NCBI GenBank assembly: GCA_964019135.1
Contig: OZ025257.1
Coordinates: 13,419,971 to 13,483,970, forward strand
Direction of reading: 5' to 3'
DNA from: Arenicola marina
Taxonomy: Eukaryota; Annelida; Polychaeta; Arenicolidae
DNA length: 64,000 nucleotides
A model generated the notes under the pieces. That model had not been told where the DNA came from. It ran no database searches and saw only the letters and a list, made by a program, of their open reading frames with translations. Positions within the stretch are counted from its first letter, which is position 1. Every line of letters begins with the position of its first letter. Of the stretch, positions 9,801 through 64,000 are shown one piece after another. The position numbers were made by a program, and so were the translations under genes.

Positions 9801-9804
9801 ATGG

Positions 9805-9923: not shown

Positions 9924-9929
9924 TTTAAC

Positions 9930-10555: not shown

Positions 10556-10559
10556 TGCC

Positions 10560-12060: not shown

Positions 12061-12089
12061 CATTAACGAACTTGACCTCGCAATTTTGC

Positions 12090-12515: not shown

Positions 12516-12519
12516 CCAC

Positions 12520-13180: not shown

Positions 13181-13199
13181 GGGTGCTATACAGTACAGT

Positions 13200-13660: not shown

Positions 13661-13973
13661 GGGTTATCCTAAATTGCAGAAAATTCCACCATTCTCACAA
13701 AAACGTTCCCACGAGGGTATGATCTTCACCTTCGAATATGTTAATAGCCTTGACCTATTACATGACATACTCGAAGGCAGCCTCCAAGGTCCATGGCCAG
13801 GGTACGAAAAGATGGCAAATGTCGTTTTTGTATGCATATTGTTACCCCATTTTGTAAGGTTGATTGTGACCTCTATTTTTATATGATTCCAAAGTCCAAA
13901 TGCGCACATTGGTCCGTCAGAAACCATTATTAACATACTGTTGCATGACTAACTGTCTTACTTTAGCTACAAT

Positions 13974-26054: not shown

Positions 26055-26129
26055 AGAAAATCAGTGCAATAATATTGTGAATCTCCGCAAACAGGCAAAT
26101 AAACAAGTGTACAGAAACATATAAATGAA

Positions 26130-36495: not shown

Positions 36496-36506
36496 GTTTG
36501 CGATAT
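36496..36506 (-). promoter_or_regulatory. Probable splice acceptor of a 5' UTR intron before the GT61 start
   Basis: On the minus strand a pyrimidine-rich ATTTCTTCCTAG ends at 36507, directly upstream of the 11-base leader that precedes the ATG at 36495. This implies that the leader exon starts upstream (above 36520). The donor was not located. Confidence 0.5.
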
Positions 36507-36559
36507 CTAGGAAGAAATAGTACAAATTATGATCAGCACGCGATATACGGAGACAGATG

Positions 36560-37889: not shown

Positions 37890-39935
37890 CGCCCTATTCC
37901 CTGTTCTCGGACTCATCATTGCTAAATTCCGGAGCCCTCTAGCGCCAAAACTAAGCGTGCTAGACTGAAAGTAAATGCGGACCCAAGTCGACATTTTCCC
38001 GTCTTTTGCAACCAATCCTGACTCGCTGGCTTCATTATTAGGCGCACGGCGGCCATCGCAACCCGAAGGAGTGCCGGTCGATATCACCGTTGACTCACAA
38101 TGGGAGCGTCAGCAGACAGGGGTGCACCTATTGCGAGCGCTCTAGCCGCCAAAGTAGGCGTCCTTAAGCAATTCTGTAGCGATTTATCATAGACAACGTA
38201 AAGTTGTCTCTCGCTTCATGCCAAATCTGGGATCCCTGGCTCAAATATTAACCGATTTATGGCTCTTTGAAATTCAAAACGCCACTTAACGCGAGATGGA
38301 CGTCAACTATTCCTGTCACATTGATGCCATTAAGCACACATGACGCCACTGACGCTTGCCAAATGAAACAAATCGGCGTGTAGCTTTCCGTGTTATCTAC
38401 TTATGAACTTATAGTGATATTACCTAGGGGTTAAATAAGTGAAAATAAAAAGATTTCACCATTTCGTCGGGTATGGTAAAATTAGACATCATTTTTGACG
38501 CACACGTTTCAGTAAAGCACAAATAGTTACGCACGGCAGCAGTTGTCCCTTGACATAAGGCATAACGTGAAATAAACCGGAAGTCGATATGGCATATAAT
38601 AGCCGAGTAATGGGTTTTATGAAACTGTAACGTCATCACGTCATTGTGACGTCATGGCATGACGCATGACAACGTACAAATAATAAGACGCAAACTTAAT
38701 GCCCTGCAATCCAAAATTTTGACCACCACGGCGGTAGAAGCATCAGCCCTTCAGATATGGCTTGACGTAATTATCAAAAATGCTATACTTCATCATTAGA
38801 AATAAATGAAATGTGAGCAGACGTACAAATATATATGTTCCCTGTCATTACCTACAAAGCTCTCAGCTCTAGTTTGTTTTTCCGGTTTGTGAAGAATTTT
38901 CAAATTTAGCCCGAGTCTGTATACTTTATCATTGGGCGAATGTTCCGTTGCCATTGAAAAAAAAATTGTGACTTGCTTTTCGCCATCTGCTTGCCTAATT
39001 TCTCTTGTACATGTCAACATCTTCCACCATGCTGAAGGAAAGTGAAATCACCAAAACGGAAGTACGTCAATTATCTCCAAAGGGTCCCATGTTAAACGTT
39101 TTCGACTATATACCGAAAGGTAATAGGGCTATGTCAATTGTCCGCAGTGGATGGCTCAACTTCATATTATCCACCTAGAACTGCACGCCTAGTCTGATGG
39201 CTTGAATAGAACGCCCCATGGGAGCCCCTGCTAGGACCAAAAATCGGTATCTTTTACCATTGGGCAAATTAAAAGAAAATCCTGTGACGTCATTTTTGGC
39301 TCGAATTCTATATGGTACGCACTATGACTACTTGGTACTATGCTTAACCAAGCAAAACATCCTACTACTGTTTTACGAAGGCAGTTGTAAATAACGGGTC
39401 AAAACATTTTTCCCAGCTTGAGAGACTGAGGACTTTAACATGGGACGTCCCATAGAGAAGTGTCGTCACCCCTGGAAACGGAAGTAAGATTGGAACGTGT
39501 TGTTTTTATTATCCATGTCTACAGAAGATCACTTTACCTACAATATGACGCCGATCTATTTTTTTTTGCATTTTTTGCCGATTTTCTGACGATTTTTTGT
39601 ATGTACCGAAAGTGACGTCATAGTGACGTCACGTGACTCATTGCAAAAACCTAACATTTCACAGAGGTTATTTTTATTCATATTTTTATGACGTGTCAGA
39701 ACCTTATAGCGATAGCTTGTTTCTAAATGCGTCAAAAAGCGAAACATCTTACAGAGGTCATTTAGTGCGTTTTCCGAAAAAAACTATTACCTCATTTTGC
39801 TCGAAACTGAGTCCGACGCGTCAAAAGGTGAGCATATACGAAAGATGCAACTCGACGGGTAGCACATTTTGAAACTTACTCGAGATCTCTATCTCTAATA
39901 TTAACGGAGAGTGTTGTGTTCAATCTTTTATTCTA
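37890..39935 (+). repeat. Dispersed repeat family Z, diverged copy 2
   Basis: 37980-38310 (GACTC, GGCCATCG, GTGCCGGTCGATATC, GAGCGCTCTAG, CTCGCTTCATGCCAAATCTG) corresponds to 60357-60640 and partly to 55008-55150. From 38340 the landmark order equals that of 10560-12060, with the double palindrome at 39613-39620 and 39624-39631 and the AACGGAAGTAAGAT block near 39480. It ends at about 39935, directly next to a LINE remnant. Confidence 0.85.
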
Positions 39936-43693: not shown

Positions 43694-44018
43694 ACCCGTA
43701 TTTCTGAACCTGTTGGCAGGACCCCTCGCTGTGGATATTGCACTGGCCTGCCTGCCGCCGCTGTCACTGACCGGTTTCTGGTGGAATCAAAGTGGTTTAA
43801 TCACGTGGTTCGTCTTAGTCTCACCAGCTCGTTGTGGTGGGGCACAGCATTATGAAATCCTATTCAATACCATTTTAGCACTTTCTTATTTCAGAAACTC
43901 CACTTCTTGTGTGACTACTGATCTATTTTGAACCCGATAATCGCGCGACATCCACTTAGCGCTAACGCTAGTGGCATAGCCTAAGTGGATACGGCCCCTG
44001 ATGACGAAAGAGTCTAAA
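43694..44018 (+). repeat. Dispersed repeat family W, copy 2
   Basis: Same-orientation copy of 1-330 (ACCCGTATTTCT, CCCCTCGCTGTGGATATT, TTTCTGGTGGAATCAAAGT, AATCACGTGGTTCGTC, GCGCTAACGCTAGTGGC). Outer boundaries agree at the TACGGCCCCTGATGACGAA end and then diverge, which sets the right end of the repeat near 44018. Confidence 0.8.
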
Positions 44019-45099
44019 TTTTAGCTCATATTAAGCTTCTCTGTTTGCACGCTTATATTATCGAGCATTAACGCTCCAAATAGTGCAAGGGCATACTTTT
44101 TTCATTTGTTTTCGCACCTACTAATTTAACTTCTGCGAGTGAGGAAAGTGACGTCAAAAGGGAATACAAACGCATGTGTTTTTATATTGAGACTCATGTT
44201 CTCTCTGCTCATTGGCTTGAACTCAACGAAACGCACTCAACCATAAAAACAAGAAGTCAGTGAGCACACTGATGATGACGAAAATCGACTTTGGGTCAAA
44301 GAGCGTGTCTTTCTGAACATGGTGATCCAAACCGCGACCCTCCACGATGATTATTAAGGGAATGAGGGCCATTTCTAGATTCCGGTACATTGAGTACATA
44401 TGCTCGGTCCCCTGGCTTGAACTTTACATTGAATATAATAGCGTGGTTTTGAGGTCAAGACAGGGCCTCGGATTTAGGTCAGCGGCTTGAGTGAATGGTA
44501 TTACAAATGCTCGTGCCGACCTAGTGTGGACTTAAAAAAAAAAAAGTAAAAAGTTAGTGGCGTAAATGGTGTGTATTGTTGCCCAAGGTCGTCTCCTACA
44601 TTGCCGCTGCATGACATTTTTGTGAAATTTTCCCCAAATTTTGTTTCCGGATTTCCTGGGGGGGGGGGGAGGGGGTGTGTTGGGATGACAGCACCGTGGC
44701 CACTGGTCATTCATTAGAGGACTAAACAAAATCACCCTGAAGTGATCAGGCGTGTATCGATGATGCCTTGGGTTGTCCTTCGCAAGTGGCGGTCCGCAGG
44801 GTCTTCGAATAGGGATGCTAATCAGGATTCGGGGGACCAATAAGGATCTGATGGGTCGATTAGGGTTGTGTGGGACAAATCGAGATGTGCAGGGTCGAAG
44901 TCGACGGTTCGAAACGGGATCCGTGGGACACATTGGTATACGACGGGTCAAAGCTGGTTTCGTTGGGTTCAATCTGGATTAGGAATGTTCAATCAGGATC
45001 ACCAAGGTCGAATCGGGATCTGAAGGTCAAATAGGGATGCGACGGGTCAATCTGCATCCTAGTTGTCAAATCTCTATCTGGCGGCTTCCATCAGGTTCT

Positions 45100-46010
45100 G
45101 AGGGAGTCAATAAAAATCATATGAGTCCAATCTGGATCCGACAGATTAAATCTGGGTCTGACGGGTCTAGTGGGGATGCCAGATGACTACTCGGGATTTG
45201 AGAGGGCAAATGTGGATGTCCAGGTCGAATGGGGAGCTGAAAAGGTCAATATGGATCTGAGAGGCAAAATAGGCGTCTGTGAATGATATCTGGATCTGAG
45301 GGATCAATATGGATCTAAGAGGTCAAGTCTGGATCTGATACGTCAAATCTGGATCTGAAGGATCACTCTTGATCTGAATGGTCAATCAGGATCTGAGAGG
45401 TCAAATCTAGATCTGAGAGGTCAATTCTGGGTCTGAGAGGTCCAATCTGGATCTGAAGGATCAAATCTGGATCTGAGGGATCAAATCTGGATCTGAGGGT
45501 CAAATCTGGATCTGAGGGATCAAATCTGGATCTGAAGGGTCAAATCTTGATCTGAGGGTCAACTCTCGATCTGAAGGGTCAATCTGGATCTGAGGGATCA
45601 AATCTGGATCTGAGGGATCAAATCTGGATCTGAAGGGTCAAATCTTGATCTGAGGGTCAACTCTCGATCTGAGGGGTCAATATGGATCTGAGGGATCAAA
45701 TCTGGATCTAAGGGATCAAATCTGGATCTAAAGGGTCAAATCTGGATCTGAGGATCAAATCTGGATCTGAGGGGTCAATCTGGATCTGAGAGGTCAAATC
45801 TGGATCTGAGAGGTCAAATCTTGATCTGAGAGGTCAAATCTGGATCTGAGGGATCAAATCTGGATCTGAGGGATCAAATCTGGATCTAAGGGATCAAATC
45901 TAGATCTGAGAGGTCAAATCTGGATCTGAGGGGTCAATCTGGATCTGAGAGGTCAAATCTGGATCTGAGGGGTCAAATCGGGATCTGAGGGGTCAATTAG
46001 TGCCTTCACT
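45100..46010 (+). repeat. Minisatellite, about 20 bp unit with GGATCTGAGG core
   Basis: Units of the form GGATCAAATCTGGATCTGAG, 18-21 bp, about 40 copies, degenerate at the 5' side (from about 44780) and homogeneous at 45290-46000. The equivalent array in copy B is 56560-57300 and is shorter. Confidence 0.93.
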
Positions 46011-46690
46011 TGACAATTTGGATCAAATAGAGGTTTCAGCGGGCAAAATAGAGTTTTAGTGAGTAAATTTGACCCAGTAGGCCATTACACATACAATTTG
46101 GCCCAAATAGAGCTTTTAAGGTACAATCTGGGGTAAATAGTGCTTTTGCTGGGCCAAATATGACGTTCAGAGAGCAATTGAGCATAGATATTGGCGTGGG
46201 ATAGCAACTTATTCCAAATATAGCTTTCTGTTTACTAAATAGCGCTTTCTGTTTACAAAATCGAGCTTTTCGTTGACAACATGGAGCTTTTGGTTCGCAA
46301 AATAGAGCTTTCTGTTGGCAAAATGGAGCTTTTGGTTCGCAAACTAGAGCTTTCAGCATGCAATTTGAGCTAAATATCGCACATACCTGGCAATTTGGGC
46401 TAAATAGCAAGTATAACAGGACATTCTAGGTACACTGGGCATCTAAGGGGCAATTTAGGGTAAACAGCGCGTATAACGAGAAATTTGGGCTCAATTGCGC
46501 ATGTGGCGGGTAATTGTCAGTTAAAAAGCGCATGTAACGCTCAATTTATGCTAAATAGCGAATATAACGGGCTTTTTGAGCTGAACAGCGCATATAGCGG
46601 GCAATTTTGGATAAACAGCGCGTATACGGGGACAATTCGGGCTAAACAGCGCGCATAACGGGAAATTTGAGCCAAATAGCGCATTCATCC
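46010..46690 (+). repeat. Arrays with 22 bp and about 30 bp units
   Basis: 46190-46350 repeats CAAAATAGAGCTTTTGGTTCG-like 20-22 bp units; 46350-46690 repeats CAATTTGGGCTAAATAGCGC plus ATATAACGG, about 30 bp. Similar arrays lie in copy B (57300-57960) and a short piece in copy D (62830-62940). Confidence 0.88.
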
Positions 46691-48489
46691 GACAACGTGC
46701 GCACCGCAGGCTCTATTTTGAGCAATGTGCAATGAGCAATTAACCGATATTAACAAAATTACAGGTAACACCGTCGTTTGTGCCGATGACGTGAGGATCG
46801 CGTCGTGTAACGCATCTTCCGCCCGCCAATTTAATGCCATATTAGAGTTTAAGTGAACATGACTTTTTTTTCTCAAGAGCGATTGCTTGACTCATTATGA
46901 ATGGCGCTACGAATTTTACTTTTTATCTAATAATACGTCATCGTGACGCGACATGACGTCATTTGACGTTTGCAAAAATGCTTAAGATGGCTTCTATTTC
47001 TTTAATATACCTACGTATCAACTCGTTCTATGACAGCTATTGCCAAAGTGGCTGAAAATAAAGCAAACCCAACATGTCGTAGGAGCACGTTAGCTATGAC
47101 GTCATTTTTGACGCATACTTATCCCCTGCGCCAAACAAGTTACACACGGCATAAACTGTCCCTGAACACGACCTGCAACGTCAAGTAACCCGAAAGTCGC
47201 CATACCTTGTAATAGCTGAGTAATAGCCTACGTAAGATATGTGACGTCATGACGTCATGGTGACGTTATGACGTGACGCACGACAACGTCCAAGCGGCAA
47301 TATGCCAAGCCTTACTGCCACAACTTATTCGATTAAAGAGCTAGCCGATAGTAAGATTAGTCCTTCAGCTATGGCTTGGCGAAATGGTCAAAAATTGCCT
47401 TAGCTTATCATTGCGGAAACACGGAGACCGACGACAAGAACAAAGAACACTGTAAGCGAAGTGATATAGCAACTAATTTGTTTCTTTCACTATTTTTCTG
47501 ACAATCAATGTTCCCTACCATTTGACGCAAACGTCACAGCTCTAGCTTGTTTTTCTGATTTTTGACGATTTTTTCAAGATGGACACAATCTCCATTCACT
47601 CATCATTGGCGGCCCCGCAAAGGTGTCGTCCCACTTCGGAGCGCTCTAGCACCATAACTAGACAACCTCCGCCTAATTAAAGCACTAAGTGATCTGAAGA
47701 TGCTTATTGGCAACTAGTTGGCGAAAAGAATGCAATTTTAGCATTTGTATTTGATTTCTGACGATTTTTCTTTAAATGGCAGGAATCTGTATGTTTATCA
47801 TTAGGCCAGTGGCTTCGTTGCCATGGAAACAAAAAGTAATACAGAGATCGCCGTGTTTTTCTTATAAATTGCTTTAAGGTGATATTACCTCACTGTGTGG
47901 CGAAGGAGATTGAAATAGCTTGAGCGGAAGTAGGTCATATTCGATCAAGTTCATTTTTCCCCATAGGATCCAATGTTAAACGATTTCGACTATATACCGA
48001 AAAGTAATAATGCTATGTCACCATGTTCACAGATTATGACTCAGCTTAGCATTATCCATCCACAGCTGCAAGTATTGAGCGATGGCTTGAATAGGACGCC
48101 CGTGGGAGCCGCTGCCAATGCCAAAAAGCCGCATCTTTCACCATTGGCCAAATTTCGAAAAAATCCTGTGACATCACTTTCTTCTCCAATTGCATATGAT
48201 AAGCACTGTTGCTACTAGGTATCATGTTTAACTAAGACAAAAATCCCCGTGTTGTTTGCTGGAGGCACTTGCGACATACGCGACAAAACATTTTTTCCCA
48301 GCCTAAAGATACAGCCCTTTTAACATGGGAAGTCCCATAGAGAAATTCCCCCGGCCCTGGAACCGGAAGTAAGATAGGAAGGTATTGTTTTTAGTTTGTA
48401 GCAATACGAGGAACTACTTTTCCTACAATATAATGCTACTCTCGCATTTTTGTGATTTTTTTCTGATTTTTGATGATTTTTTGTAAGTA

Positions 48490-48520
48490 CCGAAAGTGAC
48501 GTCATCGTGACGTCACGTGA
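48490..48520. promoter_or_regulatory. Double TGACGTCA palindrome (CRE-like), family Z conserved block
   Basis: TGACGTCA at 48497-48504 and 48508-48515, starts 11 bp apart, then ACGTGACG. The identical arrangement occurs at 11702/11713, 39613/39624, 55326/55337 and 59756/59767. TGACGTCA is the consensus binding site of CREB/ATF proteins. Whether it is bound here is inference. Confidence 0.7.
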
Positions 48521-49065
48521 CGTATGAGAAAACTCTAAGATTCAACACAAGTCATCACAATTCATGTTTCTATGACATATTTAAACATAATAGCGATAGC
48601 TTGATGGCAAATGTGCCAAAAAGCGAAAAAACTGACAGAGGTCATTTAGTGCGTTTTCCGCAAAACCTATGATCTCGTTTTCCTCGAAAATGAGTATTAC
48701 GCATCAAAAAGTGAACAATATCCAAAAACTGCACCTAAAAGAGGGGCACATTCTGAAACTAATTCGAGATCTCTAGCTTTAATATTAACGGAGATATAAG
48801 CGTTTATAGTTATTTTTTCAAAAAATCGCTGTGACCTTGACCTTTGACCTTTCGACCTGCGTGACGAGAATGTTGTAGCCCTATTAGCTGCCTATAAGAT
48901 GTTAAAGATTGCGAAACGATACATGTAGCAGTTAGGCCACAAAGAGACTTCCCGTTTTCGAGTGGGACAGACATACATTCATACATACACACAAACACGA
49001 CCAACCGACATATTCCGAAAATTTCAATTTTCGTCATAACAAACATACAAACACGACCGACCGAC

Positions 49066-49096
49066 ATATGACGAAAATTGAAAATTTTCGTCATAA
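49066..49096. repeat. Terminal hairpin of family Z copy A
   Basis: TATGACGAAAATT and its exact complement around a 2-3 base centre form a 13 bp stem, preceded by CGACCGACCGACA. A diverged neighbour with the opposite halves lies at about 49012-49042. The same hairpin with the same lead-in lies at about 60266-60296 and 62670-62700. Confidence 0.85.
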
Positions 49097-49129
49097 TAAA
49101 TCAGTTAATACATGATATTCAGTACGGTT

Positions 49130-49570
49130 TGAGGGCAAAACGCTCATTAGAATTAGCCACCCTTGAGGAACTTGCTGATCGTACTTATTGATCCCACTGG
49201 TTGATCGCAGAAGATTAGACCTGAGTGCCAATCAAGATATTTCTAGAACTTTCCAAAGCATTTCACACGATTATTCACAGTATTCTATTGAAACCATTAT
49301 ACGGCCATGAGGTTGCCAGTCAAGCATGTTCGCTTTTAGACAGTTATTTAAAAGATTGTAAATAGTATGTCAATGTTGATAATAGTGACGCACAGCTTTC
49401 ATTTGTAACACCAGGGGTTACACAGGGTTCCATAAAGTGTCCCTTTCTGTTTATGACATAAAGTAATGATATAACCAACAACCCCCTTAAATTAATCATT
49501 GATTCAGACGACTCCAGTACATTAAGTACGTTGACACACGGTACGATACATCATACATTTCTGGTGGAAA
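49130..49570 (+). pseudogene. Reverse transcriptase remnant in left arm of large inverted repeat
   Basis: Plus-strand reading in shifting frames gives QYGLRAKRSLELATLE, FIDLSKAF-like (damaged), HSILLKPLYGHEV..SLLDSYLKD, then VTPGVTQGSIKCPFLF and DDSSTLSTL, the RT order QYGFR, DLSKAFDTI, YLxxRxQ, GVPQGSxLGPLLF, DD. It is a LINE RT with many stops. A less complete copy in reverse orientation lies at 53790-54085. Confidence 0.7.
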
Positions 49571-50300
49571 TTGGAAGTACGAAACGGATCAGTGACTTAA
49601 ACAAATTTAAATCGGTCTGGTTAGAATGTCAAAGTACATTAAACTTCATCTCAGTCATCGTGCAATAATTATTTTCTATTTTATCTTATAATACATCATA
49701 AGTTTGAGGTTGTTCTTGCATGTAGGTGCCAACGCATATTTTGGCAGAGCTCAGGTATTACCCACACCTTCCATGTAATACGATTTTGTGGGCACTAACT
49801 GTAATCTCAGATGGATTAAGAGTTGAATCGGAAACTAAAAGTTTGCTTGAATGACAAATAGAAACGAGGATATTTTAACAACTCCTCTGTAATAAATATC
49901 AACTAGTATAATGCGCGAGAAATGTGACATTTTATGGAGATATTGAACCGATTGTTACGTAACGACGGAGCATGTGATAATTATTGAAGCACGAGGCGCT
50001 ATATCCGCTCTTACCCAGTGGCCATTCCAACACGCGATAACTCCGCACACCGTGATAATAACTCCCAACAATACGGCCTTCTTGACGGCCGGAGGAAAGC
50101 GACAGCGCGTGAGATACATCGTCGGACCAGACAACACTACCTGTAGTGGTACGTGTCCTGTAAGTATTCAGGTAGAAATGGGGATCATGGTGAACCTTGT
50201 CTTGTCTGGCCACTTACCCACACCCGTCTCTGTCATCCCATACCAACCCCCTGAAGTGAACCTCTTGAGAACTGATTGGCTTATCGCAGCGTTGACGTAG
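49220..50300 (+). repeat. Left arm of a 4.9 kb inverted repeat
   Basis: Matches the complement of about 52990-54085. Shared blocks from outside in: ACGATTATTCACAGTATTCT, TGTTCGCTTTTAGNCAGTT, AAAAGATTGTAAA, TTGATAATAGTGAC, GACGACTCCAGTA, GAAATTGGAAGTACG, TCGGAAACTNAAAG, GATATAGCGCC, TATCACGGTGTGCGGAGTT, TGAATACTTACAGGACACGT (complement), and TGAACCTCTTGAGA. Divergence is visible but modest, with several indels. Confidence 0.88.
50015..50157 (-). CDS. Candidate first coding exon encoding a signal anchor
   Basis: On the minus strand the segment is preceded by CTGAATACTTACAG (acceptor) and followed by GTAAGAGCGG (donor). Between them an ATG at 50119, with A at -3, opens 35 codons that end exactly at the donor (phase 0). 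The peptide has a short basic N terminus (Arg, Arg, then Lys-Lys), followed by a hydrophobic stretch AVLLGVIITVCGVIACW: the layout of a type II membrane anchor as in Golgi glycosyltransferases or sulfotransferases. Further exons on the minus strand below 50015 were not found; the next 900 bp hold an RT remnant. It may be the orphan exon of a duplicated gene or part of a long-intron gene. An open frame of 108 codons on the opposite strand also crosses the segment and cannot be formally excluded. Confidence 0.45.
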
Positions 50301-50330
50301 AACGCTGCATGGCACGGTGTCGACAAGTTA

Positions 50331-51340
50331 CAACCAGGGACAGTCAGTAATATACAGGGACAGCCAGGGACGGCCAGGGAAGGCTAGGGACAGCCTGGGA
50401 GAGCAATGGACAGTCAGAGACGACCAGGAATGGCTAGGGGCAGTCAGGGACAGCCACTGACAGTCAGGGACGGCCAGGGATGGCCAGAGACAGCCATGGG
50501 CAGGCACAGACAGTCATGGACGGTCACAGGGCGGCCAAGAATGACCAGTTACAGCAACGGACAGCTAGGGATGGCCAGGGACAGCCAGAGACAGCCAGAG
50601 ACAGTCAGGGCCTGCCAGGGACGGCCATGGACAGTCAGGGATGGCTAGGGACAGCCAGGGACGGCCATGGACAGTCAGGGACAACCAGGGCTGGCCAGAG
50701 ATGGCCAGGGACAGCCATGAGCAGTCAGGGATGGCTAGGGACAGCCATGGACAGTGAAGGATTGCTAGGGACAGCCAGAGACAGTCAGGGATGGTTAGGG
50801 CCAGCCAAGGACGGCCATTGACAGTCAGGAACAGCCAGGGACAGTCAGGGATGGCTAGGGATGGCCAACGATGGCCCATGACAGCCATGGGCGGTCAGGG
50901 ACAGCCCAGGCGGTCAGAGACGGCCAAGGGTGACCAATATTTCCTTGGTGCTGCTCGCTAGACATGTCCCGCTCACCCTCGTGTAGCCATTGTTCCTTGG
51001 GGACGGCCATGGACAGTCAGGGACAACCAGGGCTGGCCAGAGATGGCCAGGGACAGCCATGAGCAGTCAGGGATGGCTAGGGACAGCCATGGACAGTGAA
51101 GGATTGCTAGGGACACCCAGAGACAGTCAGGGATGGTTAGGGCCAGCCAAGGACGGCCATTGACAGTCAGGAACAGCCAGGAACAGCCAGGGACAGCTAG
51201 GGATGGCCAACGATGGCCCATGACAGCCATGGGCGATCAGGGACAGCCCAGGCGGTCAGAGACGGCCAAGGGTGACCAATATTTCCTTGGTGCTGCTCGC
51301 TAGACATGTCCCGCTCACCCTCGTGTAGCCATTGTTCCTT
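50331..51340 (+). repeat. Minisatellite of 10 bp GACAGCCAGG units with a 342 bp higher-order duplication
   Basis: Alternating GACAGCCAGG, GACGGCCAGG, GATGGCTAGG and GACAGTCAGG units. A block beginning ACGGCCATGGACAGTCAGGG lies at 50661 and again at 51003, and the unique tail TTCCTTGGTGCTGCTCGC at 50941 and 51283, giving an offset of 342 bp for both. Frames of 80-113 codons inside are period artefacts. Confidence 0.95.
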
Positions 51341-51344
51341 GCAT

Positions 51345-51556
51345 CCAGATATCAGAGGAAGGAATGTTGGTGTTTTAGGCCACTTTTGTGCACATACAGG
51401 CTAAATTGGGCCAAGGAACCTCCCGAGACGATGAAGGATGAAGGAATGAAACATGCCCCAGATTAGGTGCCCGAGCCCGGATTCGAACCCAGGACCTATT
51501 GATCTGCGGTCTAGTGCGCTAACCACTACACCAGGGAGGCCCCCCCAGATATCAGA
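51345..51556 (-). mobile_element. Complete tRNA-derived SINE, 188 bp, with 12 bp target-site duplication
   Basis: CCAGATATCAGA at 51345-51356 is repeated exactly at 51545-51556. The insert between them, read on the minus strand, starts with a run of G and CCTCCC, then a pol III A-box TGGTGTAGTGG (51523-51533) and B-box GGTTCGAATCC (51479-51489), so the first about 75 bases are a tRNA-like head. The T-stem has a mismatch, and no functional tRNA is expected. A tRNA-unrelated body and a CATTCCTTCATCCTTCATC-type stretch follow. The element sits exactly at the edge of the minisatellite. The perfect duplication indicates a recent insertion. Confidence 0.88.
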
Positions 51557-51649
51557 TATATGGTTTGTGGAAGATATGTTCGATGAGAAAGGAAATGTAT
51601 ATAAGTTTGAGAATAGAAGGTTATTATCTCATATCGTCGAATAACCAAA

Positions 51650-51780
51650 ATCTTTCGTACACTACGTTCGGCTATTGTCGTGCTGCCTACTACTGAGGCC
51701 AGCCCAATCAGCCGGTGAAGGATTCGAATCCCACCTATGCAATTGTCACTGCTGGGGCAGTGTAAAGATCGGTATATCCT
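51650..51780 (+). repeat. Possible second SINE fragment
   Basis: GGATTCGAATCCC at 51720-51732 is a B-box-like palindrome, followed by CACCTATGC. No A-box or target duplication is convincing. Confidence 0.35.
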
Positions 51781-51814
51781 TGCGGTAACCCGAATACGCA
51801 CATTTCCATTGCCA

Positions 51815-52625
51815 CGCACATTGGCAACCCTTCCACATTGGTAAGCCTTCCACAATGGTAAGCCTTCCACACTGGCAAGCCTTCCACATTGGTAAGCCTT
51901 CCACACTGGTGAGCCTGCCACACTGGTAAGCCACCCACACTGGTAAGCCACCCACACGGGCAAGCCTAACACACTGGTAAGCCACACACACTGGTAAGCC
52001 ACCCACACTGGCAAGCCTTCTACACTGGCAAGCCTTCCACACTGGCAAGCCTTCCACACTGGTAAGCCATCCACACTGGTAAGCCACCCACACTGGCAAG
52101 CCTTCCACACTGGTAAGCCACCCACACTGGTAAGCCACCCACACTGGCAAGCCTTCTACATTGGCAAGCCTTCCACACTGGTAAGCCACCCACACTGGCA
52201 AGCCCTCCACACTGGCAAGCCTTCCACACTGGTAAGCCTTCCACACTGGTAAGCCACCCACACTGGCAAGCCCTCCACACTGGCAAGCCTTCTACACTCA
52301 TAAGCCTTCAACACTGGTAGGCCTTTCACACTGGTAAGCCACCCACACTGGCACGCCCTCCACACTGGCAAGCCTTCCACACTGGTAAGCCTTCTAAACT
52401 GGTAAGCCTTCCACATTGCTAAGCCTTCCACACTGATAAGCCTTCCACATTGGTAAGCCTTTCACACTGGTTAGCCTTCCACATGGGTAAGCCTTTCACA
52501 CTGGTAAGCCTTCTACACTGGTAAGCCTTCTACACTGGTAAGCCTTCCACAGTGGTAAGCCTTCCACATAGGTAAGCCTCCCACACTAGTAGGCCTTCCA
52601 CATTGGCAAGCCTTCCACATCGCAA
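51815..52625 (+). repeat. Minisatellite of 17 bp CCTTCCACACTGGTAAG units
   Basis: About 48 copies; the common variant is CCACCCACACTGGTAAG. Variation is in CCTTCC vs CCACCC and GGTAAG vs GGCAAG. The period (17) is not a multiple of three, so it creates open frames of up to 199 codons with a 17-residue period on the minus strand; these look like Cys/Trp-rich proteins but are artefacts. Confidence 0.96.
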
Positions 52626-52985
52626 TACTTGACAGCCTGTCCCTCAAGCGTTCTCAGCTAAACCTTTGGCTCCTGAAAAACGTGCTCGAAGTCACACCTG
52701 TGTCTCAAGTGTTGCAAATACACCAGTGCCTAGTCCGTTCTTTTAGATTTACATACTTGTGGGTTACTTGAATAATGAGGGAAAAACAGTGCGTTTACTT
52801 GACAACGAACAGTTGGTCGCATGTCAATTTATTGCTCCTTATTGCAGGCCCGTAAAACTTGTTTGGCTTTCGAAAAAACGGAATGACGTAACCGGAGGCA
52901 AGTAAGAGTAAATATATGACCTCTTGTTGGTCTGAAATGTCCCGCAGGTAAAAAGTTAGATATTAAAACTTAGATCATCCTGAGT
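52625..52985. other. Unassigned single-copy DNA in the inverted-repeat centre
   Basis: No ORF or repeat recognised. Confidence 0.4.
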
Positions 52986-53180
52986 GTCCCTCGTTGTGAC
53001 TGCATGGCCGTCCTGGCCACGCTGTGGGGAGCGAATAGGTCCCTCTCAAGAGGTCCACTTCAAAGGGCGGGTGGGTGGGAGGGAGGGAGACGGGTGTGGG
53101 GGGTGGGGGAAGAAAATGAGCGTGGGGGCGAGGCAAGGCAATGTTCATCATGATCCCCATGTCTACCTGAATACTTACAG

Positions 53181-53323
53181 GACACGTACCACTACAGGTA
53201 GTGTTGTCTGGACTGGTGATGTATTCCATAAGCTGTCGCTTTCCTCATGCCGCCAAGTGAGCCAAATTGTTGGGAGTTTTTATCACGGTGTGCGGAGTTC
53301 TCGTGTGCTTCTATGGCCACTGA
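53181..53323 (+). pseudogene. Inverted copy of the signal-anchor exon with a premature stop
   Basis: Preceded by CTGAATACTTACAG and followed by GTAAGAGCGG exactly as in the left-arm exon. The ATG at 53219 opens the same 105-base segment, but codon 14 is TGA (53258-53260). Beyond it the frame keeps the hydrophobic run (LLGVFITVCGVLVCFYG) and the last codon before the donor is TGA where the other copy has TGG. Splice borders and length are conserved while the frame is broken, so this is the degraded member of the pair. Confidence 0.6.
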
Positions 53324-53789
53324 GTAAGAGCGGATATAGCGCCCCTAGCTGCCTCGTCTTCACTCGTGCTTTAATAATTTGTGCATGCGCAGTCCTTACG
53401 TAACGATGGCGTGCAATGGTTTCAATATATCGACCCACCACATGCCGCGTTGCACTATTTGATATTTGCTACAGTGGAAAATACTATTCGCCACCAAATA
53501 AAACTTTCAGTTTCCGATTCAAACTTTTTGTCCACCTTAGATGAGAGTTAGTGCCCACAAAATGCAGTAATATATTACATGGAAGGCGTGAGTAATACTT
53601 GAGCTATGCCAAAACATGCGTTTGCCCTTACATGCAAGAACGCATGATGTATTATAGGTAATATAGATAACAATTACACGATGACGGAGATGAATTTCAT
53701 GCACGTTGACATTCCAACCAGACTGATGTAAGTTTGTTTAAATTATTGATCCGTTCCGTACTTCCAATTTCCATCAACAATTTGTCAAC

Positions 53790-54085
53790 GCATTTAATAT
53801 ACTGGAGTCGTCTGCATAAAAAAATATTCATTTTAGGAGGTTGCTGGCTATATCATTACATATATTATAAAGAGAATGGGACATATTATGAAACCATGTG
53901 GAACGCCTGATGTTAACGAAAAGTTTGAGTCACTATTATCAACAAGGACAGATTGTTTACAATCTTTTAAATGACTGGCTAAAAGCGAACATGGTTCACT
54001 AGCAGCCCCATAGCAGTCTAATGTTTACAATAGAATACTGTGAATAATCGTATCAAATGTTTTTGGAGAGATCAAGAAATATATT
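53790..54085 (-). pseudogene. Reverse transcriptase remnant in right arm
   Basis: Complement of the RT remnant at 49260-49560: the minus strand reads HVRF/LSHLKDCKQSVLVDNSDSNF, a GVPHGFI variant of the PQG motif, and DDSSILNAL. It carries several stops. Confidence 0.6.
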
Positions 54086-54179
54086 GAACTTAAATAAATT
54101 TAACTTACAGACAGGTGTATCGAGAAGTTGCCGTCGGCTTCAACCCATCAATGACGCTTTCTATAATGTGCCAAGGCCA

Positions 54180-54830
54180 CCTATATAATGTTATGTAGCC
54201 ATGATAGTGAAGGCAGGGCAGAAAATAATTGGGCATCACAAGTGAAGAATTGGCTTTTTAAATAGGGATTTGGTTTTGTCTGGTTGGGGACCATCTGTAC
54301 TTCACGAGGGAATTTACGCAGATATTAATGTTTTATGGCAAAATTGGTATGTAAATGCTTGTGAAAATATTAAACTACCATGTGAATATTGTCTGTATAA
54401 GACCCTTTTAAACCCAGAGAGATATCTGTCGGTGGTAACGAGTGCAAGGTTAAGAAAGGAGCAAAACTGGTAGTAGCGGGAAACTTATGATTGAGAGAGG
54501 CAGACAAATTAATATACCCCGAAAGATTGTGCCCATTTTGCATGGACGAAATTGAAACCCAATTTCACTTCTTGTTCAAGTGTCAGCTTTATACAGATAT
54601 CTGGGAGAAATATGTCAATAGTAGCATTTACAAATACCCATCAAAAGAAAATGTTATCCGACTTATGTGCACAACTGACGAGAACAGTCTATACCGAATC
54701 TGAAAGTTTATAGTTGCCGCATTTAGCAAGAGGGAACAGCAGGGGTTTGAATGATGTGGCAGAGTTAATTACTGTATTGGATCGTTGTGTTTGTGTCTAT
54801 ATGATTTGAACGGAATAATTCAACTTTTTA
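54180..54830 (+). pseudogene. LINE C-terminal remnant with zinc-knuckle motif
   Basis: Frames 54270-54473 and 54491-54703 adjoin with a shift. The first has LNPERYLSVVTSARLRKEQNW; the second has KLIYPERLCPFCMDEIETQFHFLFKCQLYTDIW, i.e. ERLCPFC-x4-E-x4-HFLFKC-x2-Y, the post-RT zinc knuckle of a widespread animal LINE group. The 5' parts are missing and the region abuts the large inverted repeat. Confidence 0.75.
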
Positions 54831-54989
54831 TAATTTTATAATAAGTAAGGAATAAACATGCATACTCATCACAGATTTGTGAGAATTCACCGGGATATCT
54901 CATCGGTTTATGTATACTGCGCAGGCTAGATAAAATGAATTTTATTGACATTTAACTTTTAAAAGTACATATTCATGTACTAATCAGAC

Positions 54990-55835
54990 CATAACATATA
55001 TGCGAGCGCTCTAGCGGCCAAACTAAGCGTCCTAGGGCAAATCTGGTGAGATTTACCATAGATAAGCCGCCATCTCTCTCTCGCTTCATGCCAAATCTGG
55101 GTTCCCTAGCTCAATTAGTAACCGAGTCATGGCCCTTTGAACGTCGAAACGCCACAAAAGTCCCATAGAGAAATGCCGTCGGCCCTGGAACCGGAAGTAA
55201 GATAGGAACGTGTCGTTTTTAATTTGTCGCTATAAGGGAAACCTCGTTTCCTACAAAATGACGCTAGTCCCGCATTTTTAGGATTTTTTTCAGATTTTTG
55301 ACGATTTTTGGTAAGTACCAAAAGTGACGTCATCGTGACGTCACGTGACGCATCAAAACACTCTAAGATTCGACACAAATCATCTCAGTTCATATTTCTA
55401 TGACATATTAGAACGTTACAGCGATAACTTGAAGGTAAATGGGTCATCAGGCGAAAACACTGACAGAGGTCATTTAGTGCGTTTTCCTCAAAACTTCTGA
55501 GCTCATATTATTCGAAAATGAATATACGCATCAAAAAGTGAACAATACATGAAAACTGCGCCCTAATTAGTAGCACATTCTGAAACTTACCAGAGATCTC
55601 TAACTTTAATATTAACGGAGATATAAGCGTGTTCAATGATTTTTGTCAAAACATCGCTGTGACCTTGACCTTTGACCTTTCAATCTGCGTGATGAGTATA
55701 TCGTAGCCCTATCGCCAAGCTATCAGGCACAAACTAATGCGAATTAATGTATACGGTTGTTAGGACGCAATGAGACTTGCAATTCTCGAGTGAGACAGAC
55801 ATACACGCCTTTTGGACGGGAAGACCGACAAAGAA
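54990..55835 (+). repeat. Dispersed repeat family Z, short copy preceding copy B
   Basis: 55008-55150 matches 60485-60640; 55150-55700 matches the last part of the Z body (AGTCCCATAGAGAAATGCCG, GGAACCGGAAGTAAGATAGG, double palindrome at 55326/55337, CTTTAATATTAACGGAGATA, GACCTTGACCTTTGACC). The central Z body is deleted. It is followed by the start module of copy B at 55836, so the copies are arranged head to tail. Confidence 0.85.
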
Positions 55836-58800
55836 CCAAGAACTCAGTGGGACACTGATGATGACGAAAATCGACTTTGTGTCACAGAACGTGTCTTTCT
55901 GAACATGGTGATCCAAACCGCGACCCTCCACGATGATTATTAAGGGAATGAGGGCCATTTCTAGATTCCGGTACATTGAGTACATATGCTCGGTCCCCTG
56001 GCTTGAACTTTACATTGAATATGATAGCGTGGTTTTGAGGTCAAGACGGGGCCTCGGAATTAGGTCAGCGGCTTGAGTGAATGGTATTACAAATGCTCGT
56101 GCCGACCTAGTGTGGACTTTTTTTTCCGGATTTCCTGGGGGGGGGGGGGTGTGTTGGGATGACAGCACCGTGGCCACTGGTCATTCATTAGAGGACTAAA
56201 CAAAATCACCCTGAAGTGATCAGGCGTGTATCGATGATGCCTTGGGTTGTCCTTCGCAAGTGGCGGTCCGCAGGGTCTTCGAATAGGGATGCTAATCAGG
56301 ATTCGGGGGACCAATAGGGATCTGATGGGTCGATTAGGGTTGTGTGGGACAAATCGAGATGTGCAGGGTCGAAGTCGACGGTTCGAAACGGGATCCGTGG
56401 GACACATTGGTATACGACGGGTCAAAGCTGGTTTCGTTGGGTTCAATCTGGATTAGCAATGTTCAATCAGGATCACCAAGGTCGAATCGGGATCTGAAGG
56501 TCAAATAGGGATGCGACGGGTCAATCTGCATCCTAGTTGTCAAATCTCTATCTGGCGGCTTCCATCAGGTTCTGAGGGAGTCAATAAAAATCATATGAGT
56601 CCAATCTGGATCCGACAGATTAAATCTGGGTCTGACGGGTCTAGTGGGGATGCCAGATGACTACTCGGGATCTGAGAGGGCAAATGTGGATGTCCAGGTC
56701 GAATGGGGAGCTGAAAAGTTCAATATGGATCTGAGAGGCAAAATAGGCGTCTGTGAATGATATCTGGATCTGAGGGATCAATATGGATCTGAGAGGTCAA
56801 GTCTGGATCTGATACGTCAAATCTGGATCTGAAGGATCACTCTGGATCTGAATGGTCAATCAGGATCTGAGAGGTCAAATCTAGATCTGAGAGGTCAAAT
56901 CTAGATCTGAGAGGTCAATTCTGGGTCTGAGAGGTCCAATCTGGATCTGAAGGATCAAATCTGGATCTGAAGGATCAAATCTGGATCTGAGGGTCAAATC
57001 TGGATCTGAGGGATCAAATCTGGATCTGAAGGGTCCAATCTTGATCTGAGGGTCAACTCTCGATTTGAGGGGTCAATCTGGATCTGAGGGATCAAATCTG
57101 GATCTGAGGTATCAAATCTGGATCTGAAGGGTCAAATCTTGATCTGAGGGTCAACTCTCGATCTGAATGGTCAATCTGGATCTGAGGGATCAAATCTGGA
57201 TCTGAGGGATCAAATCTGGATCTGAAGGGTCAAATCTGGATCTGAGGATCAAATCTGGATCTGAGGGGTCAAATCTTGATCTGAGGGGTCAATTAGTGAC
57301 TCCAGTTGACAATTTGGGTCAAATAGAGGTTTCAGCTAGCAAAATAGTTTTAGTGAGTAAATTTGACTAAGTAGGCCATTACACATACAATTTGGCCAAA
57401 ATAGAGCTTTTAATGTACAATTTTGGGGTAAATAGAGCTTTCGTTGGGCCAAATATAGCCTTCAAAGGGCAATTCAGCATAGCTGGCTTGGAAAAGCAAC
57501 TTATGCACAATAGAGCTTTTCGTTGACAAAATAGAGTTTCTGTTGACCAAATAGAGCTTTATGTTGGCAAAATAGAGCTTTCTGTTGGCAAAATAGAGCT
57601 TTTGGTTCGCAAACTAGAGCTTTCAGCATGCAATTTGAGCTAAATATCGCACATACCTGGCAATTTGGGCTAAATAGCAAGTATAACAGGACATTCTAGG
57701 TACACTGGGCATCTAAGGGGCAATTTAGGGTAAACAGCACGTATAACGAGCAATTTGGGCTCAATTGCGCATGTAGCGGGTAATTGTAAGTTAAAAAGCG
57801 CATCTAACGCTCAATTTATGCTAAATAACGAATATAACGAGCGATTTCAGCTGAACAGCGCATATTGGGGGCAATTTTGGATAAACAGCGCGTATACCGG
57901 ACAATTCGGGCTAAACAGCGCGTATAACGGGAAATTTGAGCCAAATAGCGCATTCATCCGACAACGTGCGCACCGCAGGCTCTATTTTGAGCAGTGTGCA
58001 ATGAGCAATTAACCGATATTAACGGAATTACAGGTAACGCCGTCGTTTGTGCCGGTGACGTGAGGATCGCGTCATGTGACGCATCTTCCGCCCGCGAATT
58101 TAATGCCATATTAGAGTGTAAGTGAACATGAAATAATGAAAGAGCGATTGCTTGACTCATTATGAATGGCGCTACGAATTTTACTTTTTATCTAATAATA
58201 CGTCATCGTGACGCAACATGACGTCATTTGACGTTTGCGAAAATGCTTAAGATGGCTTCTATTTCTTTAATATACCTACGTATCAACTCAGGCTATGACA
58301 GCTATTGCCAAAATCCTATTGCAAATCCAACATGTCGTAAGAGCACGTTAGCTATGACGTCATTTTTGACGCATACTTATCCCCTGCACCAAAAAAGTTA
58401 CACACGGCACAAACTGTCCCTGAACACGACCTGCAACGTCAAGCAACCCGAAAGTCGCCATACCTTGTAATAGCTGAGTAATAGCCCCACGTAAGATATG
58501 TGACGTCATGACGTCATGGTAACGTTATGACGTGACGCACGACAACGTCCAAGCGGAAATATGCCAAGGTTTACTGCCCCAACTTATTCGATTGAAGAGT
58601 TAGGCGATAGAAAGAATAGTCATTCAGCTATGACTTGACGAAATGGCCAAAAGTTGCATCAGTTCATCATTGCGGAGATACGGAGATCTAGGACAAGAAC
58701 AAAGAACACTGCAGGCGAAGTGATATAGCAACTCATTTATTTCGTTTACTAGTTCTCTGAAGATCAATGGTCCCTACCATTTGGCGTAAAGATCACAGCT

Positions 58801-60296
58801 CTGGCATGTATTTCTTAATTTTGACGTTGTTTTCAAGATGGACACAATCTCCTTTCACTCATCATTGGTGGCCCCGCAAAGGTGTCGTCCCACTTTGAAG
58901 CGCTCTAAGGCCATAACTGAGCAACATTCGCCTGATTGAAGCATTAAGTGATCTGTAGATGCCTATTGGCAACTAGTTGGCGAAAAGATTGCAATTATAC
59001 CATTTTTATCTGATTTTTGACGATTTTTCGTTCAATGGCAGGAATCTGTATGTTTATCATTAGGCCAGTGGCTTCGTTGCCATGGAAACAAAAAGTAATA
59101 CAGAGATCGCCGTGTGTTTCTTATAACTTGCTTTAAGATGATATTACCTCACTGTGTGGCGAAGGAGACTGAAATAGCTTGAACGGAAGTAGGTCATATT
59201 CGATCAAGTTCATTTTTCCCCATAGGATCCCATGTTAAACGATTTCGACTATATACCGAAAAGTAATGTGGCTATGGAACCATGTTGACAGATTATGACT
59301 CAGCTTAGTATTATCCATCCACAGCTGCAAGCATTGAGTGATGGCTTGAATAGAACACCCGTGGGAGCCTCTGCTAACACCGAAAAGCCGTATCTTTCAC
59401 CATTGGTTAAATTTCCAAAAAATCCTGTGACGTCACTATTTGCTCTAATTGCATATGGTAAGCACTGTGGCTACTAGACGTCATGTTCAACTAAGAAAAA
59501 AATCCCGGTGTTGTTTGCTGGAGGCACTTGCGACATACATGACAAAACATTTTTTCCCAGCCTAAAGATACAGCCCTTTTAACATGGGAAGTCCCATAGA
59601 GAAATTCCCCCGGCCCTGGAACCGGAAGTAAGATAGGAACGTATTGTTTTTAGTTTGTAGCTATACGAGGAACTACTTTTCCTACAATATAATGTTACTC
59701 TCGCATTTTTGTGATTTTTTTCAGATTTTTGATAATTTTTTGCAAGTACCGAAAGTGACGTCATCGTGACGTCACGTGACGTATCAGAAAACTCTAAGAT
59801 TCAACACAAGTCATCACAATTCATATTTCTATGACATATTTGAACATCATAGCGATAGCTTGATGGCAAATGTGCCAAAAAGCAAAAAAACTGACAGAGG
59901 TCACTTAGTGCGTTTTCCGCAAAACCTATGACCTCGTTTTCCTCGAAAATGAGTATTACGCATCAAAAAGTTAACAATACCGAAAAACTGCACCTGAAAG
60001 AGGGGCATATTATGAAACTAATCCGAGATCTCTAGCTTTAATATTAACGGAGATATAAGCGTTTTTAGTTATTTTTTCAAAAAATCGCTGTGACCTTGAC
60101 CTTTGAGCTTTCAACCTGCATGACGAGAATGTTGTAGCCCTATAGCCTAGCTATTAGGTACTAAAGACTGGGAACTAATACATACAGCCGTTAGGCCACA
60201 AGGAGACTTCCCGTTTTCGAGTGAGACAGACATACAAACAAACATACAAACACGACCGACCGACATATGACGAAAATTGAAAATTTTCGTCATAAC
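55836..60296 (+). repeat. Dispersed repeat family Z, long copy B (about 4.46 kb)
   Basis: Near-identical to copy A (44254-49100). Differences include a 50-60 bp deletion after the G run at 56138-56149, a shorter 20 bp array (about 56560-57300), and scattered substitutions in the body. It ends in the same GACCGACCGACATATGACG hairpin, which is directly followed by the start of copy C. No transposase, RT or other domain is encoded. Confidence 0.92.
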
Positions 60297-61258
60297 AAGA
60301 AGTCAGTGAGGACACTGATGATGACGAAAATCGACTTTGGGTCAAAGGGCGTGTCTTTTGCGACCAGTCCCGACTCTCTAGCGTCGCTATTAAGCGAACG
60401 TCGGCCATCGACGAGTAAGGAGTGCCCGTCGATATCGCCGTTCACTCATAATGGGAGCCTCAGCGAAGGGGGTGCAACTCTTGCGAGCGCTCTAGCGGCC
60501 AAACTAAGCGTCCTAGAGCAATTTTATCGCGATTTTCGCTGGTCAACCCGCCATCTGTCTCTCGCTTCATGCCAAATCTGGGCTCCCCAGCTCAATTATT
60601 AACCGAATTATGGCCCTTTGAACGTCGAAACGCCACAAAAGTCCCATAGAGAAATGCCGTCGGCCCTGGAACCGGGAGTAAGATAGGAACGTATCGTTTT
60701 TACTTTGCAGCTATACGAGGAACCACTTTCCCCGCACAATGACGCTACTCGTGTATTTTTATGATTTTTTGCCGATTTTTGACGATTTTTTCAAGATGGA
60801 CACGATCTCCATTCACTCATCATTGGCGACCCCGCGAAGGTGTCGTCCCACTTCGGAGCGCTCTAGCGCCATAACTAGACAACCTCCGCCTAATTAAAAG
60901 ACTAAGTGATCTGAAGATGCTTATTGGGAACTAGTTGCAATTTTGCAATTTTGCAAGATTGCAATTTTAGCATTGTTATCTGATTTTTGACCATTTGTTC
61001 TTTAAATGACAAGAATCTGTATGTTTATCATTAGGCCAGTGGGCCATGGAAACGAAAACTAGTTTTGTGATCACCGTGTTTATCTTGCAACTTGCTTTTC
61101 GATGATAGTACCTCACTGTGTGGCGAACGAGACTGAAATAGTTTAAGCGGAAGCAGGTCATATTTACTCAAGTTCATTTTTCCCCATAGGATCCCATGTT
61201 AAACGATTTCGACTATATACCGAAAAGTAATATAGATATTGCACCATGTTCACAGATT
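60296..61258 (+). repeat. Dispersed repeat family Z, internally deleted copy C
   Basis: Starts with AACAAGAAGTCAGTGAGGA, then jumps after GCGTGTCTTTT to the module also seen at 37980-38310, then to AACCGGGAGTAAGATAGG and to the CAAGATGGACAC / CACTTCGGAGCGCTCTAG / TCATTAGGCCAGTGG / CCATGTTAAACGATTTCG blocks known from 47570-48000. The order of blocks is scrambled relative to A, suggesting recombination between copies. Repeat X begins at about 61260. Confidence 0.8.
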
Positions 61259-62639: not shown

Positions 62640-64000
62640 CAAACAAACATACAAACACGACCGACCGACATATGACGAAAATTGAAAATTTTCGTCATAA
62701 CAAGAAGTCAGTGAGGACACTGATGATGACGAAAATCGACTCTAGGTCGAAGAGCGTGTCTATCTGAACATGTTGATCGGAACCGCGACCGCCCACGATG
62801 ATTATTAAGGGAATGAGGGCCATTTCTATATTACGATTTGAGCTGAACAGCGCATATAGGGGGCAATTTTGGATAAACAGCGCGTATACGGGACAATTCG
62901 GGCTAAACAGCGCGTACAACGGGAAACTTAAGCCAAACGCAACGTGCGCACCGCAGGCTCTATTTGGAGCAGTGTGCAATGAGCAATTAACCGATATTAA
63001 CGGAATTACAGGTGAAACCGTCGCTTGTGCCGATGACGTGACAATCGCGTCATGTGACGAATCTTCCGCCCAAGAATTTAATGCCATATTAGAGTTTAAG
63101 TGAACATGAAATTTTCTCAAGAGCGATTGCTTAACTCATTATGAATGGCGCTACGAATTTTACTTGTTATCTAATAATACGTCATCGTGACGCGACATGA
63201 CGTCGTTTGACGTTTGCAAAAATGCTTAAGATGGCTTCTATTTCTTTAATATACCTACGTATCAACTCGTTCTATGACAGCTATTGCCAAAGTGGCTGAA
63301 AATAAAGCAAACCCAACATGTCGTAGGAGCACGTTAGCTATGACGTCATTTTTTACGCATACTTATCCCCTGCGCCAAACAAGTTACACACGGCACAAAA
63401 TGTCCCTGAACACGACCTGCAGCGTCAAGCAACCCGAAAGTCGCCATACCTTGTAATAGCTGAGTAATAGCCTACTTAAGATATGTGACGTCATGACGTC
63501 ATGGTGACGTTATGACGTGACGCACGACAACGTCCAAGCGGCAATATGCCAAGCTTTACTGCCACAACTTATTTGATTAAAGAGCTAGCCAATAGTAAGA
63601 TTAGTCCTTCAGCTATGGCTTGGCGAAATGGTCAAAAATTGCATTAGCTTATCATTGCGGAAACACGGAGACCGACGACAAGAACAAAGAACACTGTAAG
63701 CGAAGTGATATAGCAACTAATTTGTTTCTTTCACTATTTTTCTGACAATCAATGTTCCCTACCATTTGACGCAAACGTCACAGCTCTAGCTTGTTTTTCT
63801 GATTTTTGACGATTTTTTCAAGATGGACACAATCTCCATTCACTCATCATTGGCGGCCCCGCAAAGGTGTCGTCCCACTTCGGAGCGCTCTAGCACCATA
63901 ACTAGACAACCTCCGCCTAATTAAAGCACTAAGTGATCTGAAGATGCTTATTGGCAACTAGTTGGCGAAAAGAATGCAATTTTAGCATTTGTATTTGATT
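62640..64000 (+). repeat. Dispersed repeat family Z, copy D (cut by window end)
   Basis: Terminal hairpin of a preceding unit at 62670-62700, then the start module, then a jump from GAGGGCCATTTCTATATT straight into the last units of the 30 bp array (62835), deleting the 20 bp array. From 63000 it follows copy A at 46740-47740 nearly base for base to the window end. Confidence 0.9.

Follow-up and report, generated by a model that had tools for sequence, protein, structure and literature searches.

A long inverted repeat of Arenicola marina as a probable passenger between Helentron-type repeat units

A long inverted repeat is commonly taken to reflect a local duplication or a local break, or to be a foldback element. 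A different origin is considered here for a long inverted repeat of the annelid Arenicola marina (GenBank assembly GCA_964019135.1), which lies in a stretch of 64,000 nucleotides of contig OZ025257.1 (C10:13419971-13483970; C10, C3, C8 and the like are chromosome labels). This whole stretch is called the window. The inverted repeat belongs to a core (about 49100-55000) that is enclosed between repeat units of one orientation. The comparison of the core with the species' own assembly (867 Mb, where all search counts are lower bounds) points to an old inverted duplication from C3, which was trapped between Helentron-type units and has probably been dispersed with them, the movement being led by rolling-circle transposition. 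The inverted repeat is, as far as the sequence comparisons reach, a passenger, most simply captured once, and would itself play no role in the movement.

The described systems closest to the enclosing units are the non-autonomous Helentrons known as HINE or DINE-1, including Cg_HINE of Crassostrea gigas. These elements have subterminal inverted repeats that are palindromic on the 5′ side, tandem repeats in the centre, a stem-loop close to the 3′ end and T-rich insertion sites (PMC4067079, PMC7492417). Identical subterminal inverted repeats of at least 11 bp are given there as a family criterion for HINE (PMC4067079), and tandem whole elements with 3′-truncated inner copies are mentioned for Helitrons in the Cg_HINE paper (PMC7492417). 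For the Helitron Helraiser, the bypass of the 3′ end with transduction of flanking DNA has been shown experimentally: when the element reads past its 3′ terminator and ends at a later one, the flanking DNA is carried along (PMC4778049). The inverted repeat itself invites comparison with the foldback elements, such as Tetris, FB, Galileo and those of the sea urchin, which have long inverted arms, tandem repeats and a modular middle (PMC4079207).

The arms of the inverted repeat were placed by blastn and alignment at 49232-50349 (left, plus strand) and 52979-54087 (right, minus strand). In blastn, 49232-50211 pairs in inverted orientation with 54087-53127 (703 bits; 764 of 1015 columns identical, 75% with gaps), and a second match joins 50217-50270 with 53100-53044. 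Across the complete alignment, 837 of the 1047 ungapped columns are identical (about 80%), with 133 gap columns and a Kimura two-parameter distance (K2P) of 0.235, which agrees with an initial annotation of the window that had described the arms as inverse complements. Neither the left arm nor 52620-54990 has another arm-sequence match within the window at E 0.01; a looser search adds one, between the reverse transcriptase (RT) part and a long interspersed nuclear element (LINE) at 24 kb (60%). Arms that differ by 20% and recur on several chromosomes are incompatible with a folded read, which makes an assembly artefact very unlikely. The longest perfect run between the arms is 50 bp, with its halves about 3 kb apart, and is equalled in 2 of 2000 column permutations. 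It was considered as a sign of constraint; because the whole inner tail of the arms is fairly conserved in a 12-row alignment, no function is claimed for it.

Each arm carries a decayed LINE RT remnant on its outer side and a non-coding tail on its inner side. The left remnant covers 49105-49536 on the plus strand (44% identity to residues 636-778 of the LINE open reading frame at 23619-26060; E 6e-22 at 49105-49533), and the right one covers 53857-54087 on the minus strand (match to the same frame, E 4e-12 at 54087-53857), as the initial annotation had it. The left remnant reaches 127 bp beyond the inverted-repeat boundary; it starts directly behind the neighbouring unit A, which ends at 49099. 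The C-terminal part of the LINE matches the arm region no better than by chance (best E 2.3), so that RT and tail appear to meet at one and the same switch in both arms. The tail had been read as a splice-bounded exon. Its GT is conserved throughout the 12 aligned tails, nine of which have GTAAGT; nonetheless, a coding exon is not supported, since the open frame of the left arm is interrupted by stops in the right arm, the arm substitutions are distributed 14/10/8 by codon position without third-position bias, and the inner arm part has no Pfam match at E 0.1.

The centre of the repeat holds two minisatellites, in line with the initial description. The first is a 10-bp array at 50330-51341 (plus strand), which contains a 342-bp tandem duplication (98%); the second is a 17-bp array at 51817-52619 (plus strand). 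The inner end of the arm homology coincides with the start of the 10-bp array, where the match score of 29 was attained by none of 2000 shuffles and none of 1871 real control segments; the array motif supplies part of this score, as stretches of the array score 14 to 30 against the identical right-arm piece. All 12 tail rows of the 12-row alignment extend to the array start (the rows were trimmed near that point). Because the arm homology runs into the first array motif, which is thus its last piece, the 10-bp array is joined to the arm sequence, with the motif single in the right arm and expanded into the array in the left arm. Beyond the array, once the SINE described below is removed, the inner sides show no homology (score 15 against a shuffled mean of 17).

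The core is found in at least ten copies on seven chromosomes: C10 (the window), C18 (34.23, 34.03 and 9.89 Mb; the three are called C18a, C18b and C18c, in no stated order), C8:39.76 Mb, C20:30.43 Mb and C14 (8.76 and 8.78 Mb), with parts at C11:17.94 and C3:19.84 Mb. Parts of both arms are kept in eight of the ten, and a left arm of at least 754 bp in six; the two C14 copies retain only 225 bp of it, and those on C11 and at C3:19.8 Mb have the right arm only. A left-arm query (49255-50300) gave at least 50 matches. Among them, C18 (twice) and C8 have near-complete left arms at 96-100% identity, C20 and C18 have truncated left arms, and C3 has left arms at 85-91%. Right-type arms (75%) lie in inverted position near left-arm matches, and about a dozen matches at 70% are restricted to query positions 1-275, which is the LINE RT. 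The inner segment of the arm (query 50120-50220) occurs at 28 places among the matches listed, 16 in the ten core copies and 12 on C3:30.37-36.58 Mb. None of these 28 lies outside the core copies and the C3 cluster, so the single dispersed arms expected from a chance pairing were not seen among them. A scan of viral contigs with a 31-base arm pattern returned nothing.

The divergence between these copies separates their spread from the origin of the repeat. K2P is 0.000-0.024 among right arms and at most 0.022 among left arms (0.001 between the left arms of the window and C8), against 0.20-0.23 between left and right; as the former values are far below the latter, the copies spread long after the arms had diverged. 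This bears directly on the reading offered by the initial annotation, in which an inverted segmental duplication formed at the window locus. The 80% identity of the arms and the lack of a terminal duplication agree with such an event, yet the left arms agree almost perfectly across chromosomes and not with their own right arms, and the junctions described below are shared, which leaves a local origin hardly credible. The part of that reading that stands is that the arms are not transposon ends and that an inverted duplication is ancestral; it would have formed in the C3 family, long before, and not at this locus.

The same copies speak on a foldback transposon, with the arms as its long terminal inverted repeats. 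Long inverted arms, repeats in the middle and genome-wide recurrence recall the known foldback elements (PMC4079207), but the dispersed copies run past the arms into the neighbouring units, so that, unlike in those elements, the arms are not the ends of a mobile unit. The left arm is mostly or wholly missing in four of ten copies (both on C14, C11 and C3:19.8 Mb), whose right arms are as similar as elsewhere, so that the copies do not depend on intact arms. No target-site duplication is found at the arm ends: the best direct repeat between the outer flanks is 6 bp, equalled by 1403 of 2000 random pairs, and the absence of a terminal duplication reported by the initial annotation is borne out. 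At C3, moreover, the inverted pairing continues outward on both sides. A foldback origin is thus very improbable.

The order of events is also recorded by a tRNA-derived short interspersed nuclear element (SINE) in the centre, at 51357-51543 on the minus strand. It was identified by A- and B-box-like motifs and by 12-bp direct repeats, CCAGATATCAGA, at 51345-51356 and 51545-51556; Rfam (at the gathering threshold) and tRNA scans of the window found nothing. The names SINE, A and B box, DINE-1-like and LINE, where they go beyond tool matches, are our presumed assignments. The SINE site is held by eight copies, of which six are filled (the window, C8, C20, C18c and both C14 copies) and two are without the SINE. 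C18b has an empty site, and at the C3 source no SINE match is found, the flanking matched pieces lying 32 bases apart. With six copies filled and C18b empty, the SINE entered the core before those six separated. The element called fresh in the initial annotation is therefore an insertion with direct repeats, as stated, but it is not fresh relative to the structure that carries it.

Outside the core copies, a longer version of the inverted duplication is found in C3:30400001-30418000, which was read as a whole stretch (the rest of the C3 cluster was read in pieces). It matches the core pieces 49095-51271, 51546-51770, 51817-52902, 52902-53206, 53268-54084 and 54096-54702 at 82-91% identity. The last of these is the outer flank of the right arm (plus strand), shared with C3 at 90% and including a zf-RVT-like LINE fragment (E 3e-4, below the Pfam cut-off); the following segment, 54703-54990, is unmatched in the comparison with C3. 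The C3 stretch pairs with itself in inverted orientation, in blocks spanning offsets 335 to 6231 and 11504 to 15997, which reaches beyond both capture points. The blocks include 335-1361 with 15997-15004 (82%), 1810-2817 with 14575-13651 (70%) and 4770-5428 with 12817-12174 (82%), and more inward; their identity is 70-84%, and on either side they are spread over as much as 6 kb. A larger genomic block is thus present at C3:30.400-30.416 Mb in two inverted copies, in blocks, and the window holds only a captured excerpt. The C3 locus is itself a long inverted-repeat segmental duplication, and the window copy is a dispersed excerpt. The divergence within C3:30.400-30.418 Mb (L040/L029/L039) is uneven, with the outermost blocks pairing at 82% and the next ones at 70%.

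The C3 region also contains more of the family. The RT homology is longer in both C3 arms (residues 533-753 and 534-680), a weak match to the endonuclease part lies further out (E 0.004), and left-arm-type copies with their own 10-bp arrays after the arm occur nearby in both orientations (L030, L031, L032). Given the longer inverted pairing and these further copies, we take it from the sequence that the C3 region is the home of the family and of the inverted duplication. The initial annotation had suggested that cruciform extrusion and breakage could explain the minisatellites in the centre. This was not upheld, as both arrays are already present at C3 and minisatellites are common elsewhere in the window. 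A unit of the same orientation starts at C3:30416332, with further occurrences of its 3′ signature at 30418810, 30423269 and 30440115.

All units in the window have one orientation, the minus strand. Unit A (44247-49099, 4.85 kb), of Helentron-associated type, lies to the left of the core with its 5′ end at 49099 and its 3′ stem-loop end at 44247. To the right, the truncated unit X (55001-55833) abuts the core and is followed by the full related element unit B (55834-60298) and by the start of a further unit (62699-64000); this right-hand array extends beyond position 64000. On the minus strand, the 5′ end of unit A is preceded by T-rich DNA and begins with the 13-bp palindrome TATGACGAAAATT-TTC-AATTTTCGTCATA (z -6.2). 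Its 3′ end has ATTTTCGTCAT, the stem-loop TCAGTG-TGCT-CACTGA with a 6-bp stem, about 8 bases and again T-rich DNA. The stem-loop TCAGTG-NNNN-CACTGA is present at all three unit ends that were folded (3, 11 and 9 of 200 shuffles fold as well or better), and the 3′ flank is T-rich at the three boundaries examined.

By the layout of their ends, the flanking units look like HINEs. Unit A has the 11-bp subterminal inverted repeat ATGACGAAAAT at its two ends (a length of 11 is reached in 1 of 5000 shuffles), a 3′ palindrome or stem-loop is present as in HINE, and the central tandem repeats of that family have their counterpart in arrays of 20, 21 and 30 bp in units A and B. Unlike HINEs, these units carry three successive minisatellites (20, 21 and 30 bp) and enclose a foreign inverted duplication of 6 kb. 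The longest listed stop-to-stop frame of unit A encodes 148 amino acids, and the frame at 46039-46425, the only one of the unit scanned against Pfam, has no match. The units are abundant, with a 25-base 3′ signature occurring at least 750 times and a 31-base 5′ palindrome at least 375 times genome-wide (reversed controls 0 and 0), in a genome with at least 53 Helitron_like_N matches. The 5′ part of the units has older relatives at 10716-12052 and 38001-39910 (about 75%), and a direct pair with 93% identity joins the left edge of the window (1-330) with 43694-44018, just left of unit A. At C3:19.84 Mb (L028), X-type units of about 1 kb stand in tandem beside the truncated core.

The enclosure of the core is documented by its two junctions. 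The left one, between the 5′ end of unit A and the captured sequence (49097-49100), is spanned at 49099/49100 in five copies (the window, C8, C20, C18a and C18c), and the right one, at 55000/55001, in eight (the window, C8, C20, C18c, both C14 copies, C11 and C3:19.8 Mb). Neither is spanned at the C3 source, where the left junction was compared base by base and the sequence runs uninterrupted through the point that corresponds to the end of unit A (C3:30405051). On the right side, the C3 homology stops at 54702, and by eye a short stretch shared with C3, CCATAACATATA, is back at about 54991 beside unit X. As the junctions are common to several copies, the enclosure is most simply a single event in their ancestry.

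Since at least 750 unit end signatures exist, units beside the core are to be expected from abundance, and some copies end within units; the core might therefore be repeat-rich DNA spread by ordinary interchromosomal segmental duplication, with the units as bystanders. Each core copy does adjoin such units on at least one side, but the association is more regular than company alone: a unit stands on the left in eight of ten copies and unit X on the right in eight of ten, in the same orientation to the core and with shared junctions. On the left of C8 and on the right of C20, the fetched DNA past the units does not match the window. We regard bystander units as improbable.

The sequence of events that we favour as the probable one is the following. 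A decayed LINE fragment and a non-coding tail would have undergone an old tail-to-tail inverted duplication on C3. About 6 kb of it, with both inner arm parts, both minisatellites and the centre, would then have been enclosed, most simply once, between two HINE-like units of the same orientation. Rolling-circle transposition would have begun in the upstream unit X (55.8 kb, leftward), passed the point where X lacks its 3′ end, continued across the core and terminated at the 3′ stem-loop of unit A at 44247. Such a path resembles the bypass described for Helraiser, except that the next terminator here would be that of a second related unit and that the mechanism is deduced by analogy. The ends of the composites fit this path, as the outer end is a unit end in three places, namely at window 44247, on the left of C8 and on the right of C20. 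On its right side, the C8 stretch turns to N.

Several observations weigh against this sequence of events. Unit homology breaks off within a unit on the left side of C18a (46946) and on the right side of C14 (47446), and several unit arrays extend past the fetched stretches. In C18a and C18b the homology ends at 54305, and no X unit follows directly to the right. Unit X, the proposed starting point, has no palindromic 5′ end. The 5′ flank is T-rich in the window, at a junction common to C8, and not clearly so at the end unit of C20. Seven stretches of about 3.5 kb, located at or close to Helitron-type Rep genes, all lack the 10-base core of the subterminal inverted repeat, and the fetched stretch near the Rep gene at C3:14.31 Mb contains another unit; among the Rep stretches examined, no autonomous partner with matching ends was found, which is a further difference from HINE. 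The window differs from C3 by a K2P of 0.033 in the left arm and 0.066 in the right, and C3 has about 0.8 kb extra between the pieces that meet at 52902; in view of these two differences, the actual donor and the C3 copy may be siblings.

The two core copies on C14 deserve separate attention. They lie 18,329 bp apart (L023-L026, C14:8.76-8.80 Mb). No mismatch separates them along 7,794 bp (offset 4517 to 12310), and on either side the differences resume within the flanking units, about 340 bp into the left one and about 40 bp into the right one. This pair, too, weighs against the favoured sequence of events, as it resembles an exchange between units more than a precise transposition, and it suggests that the core was also moved or converted by recombination between units. 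The core may instead have spread in general through recombination between unit arrays, by circles or sister arrays, or through gene conversion. Core copies adjoining unit arrays, a unit number per side that varies between copies, and the position of both C14 breaks within units are all in its favour. On the other hand, the composites of the window, C8 and C20 end exactly at unit termini beside sequence unmatched in the window, and the copies are spread over seven chromosomes. We consider recombination the less likely main route, although it shares the capture step with spread led by transposition and the odds of the two overlap; transposition-led spread is ranked first and recombination second.

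Other features of the window stand apart from the core. A second inverted repeat has its arms at 13974-14484 and 15740-16288 (80%, 506 bits), with 21-bp arrays in both. A satellite array of 5.5 kb at 481-6022 consists of about 222 copies of a 25-bp unit. The LINE that served as the RT reference has two long frames (814 and 257 amino acids) on the minus strand at 22900-26060, with endonuclease and RT domains in the longer one. A 562-amino-acid open frame on the minus strand at 34924-36612 contains a glycosyltransferase 61 domain and is probably a host gene; a search of solved structures with the frame at 34927-36612 found nothing.

The case of A. marina offers another origin for a long inverted repeat, namely an old inverted duplication that is carried as a passenger of rolling-circle-type repeats. 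A comparison of the two arms alone (80%) would imply an old local event, while the window copy is recent, at a K2P of 0.001 from C8. The set of copies marked by the SINE is suited to testing capture by Helentron-type elements and exchange between their arrays. We tentatively propose that units of the same orientation could act as a cassette system, in which DNA between two units, even when several kilobases long and structurally awkward like the present inverted repeat with its two minisatellites, would become mobile and be exchanged between arrays on different chromosomes. If this is true, inverted repeats and minisatellites would be seeded across the genome by passengers and not by local breakage.

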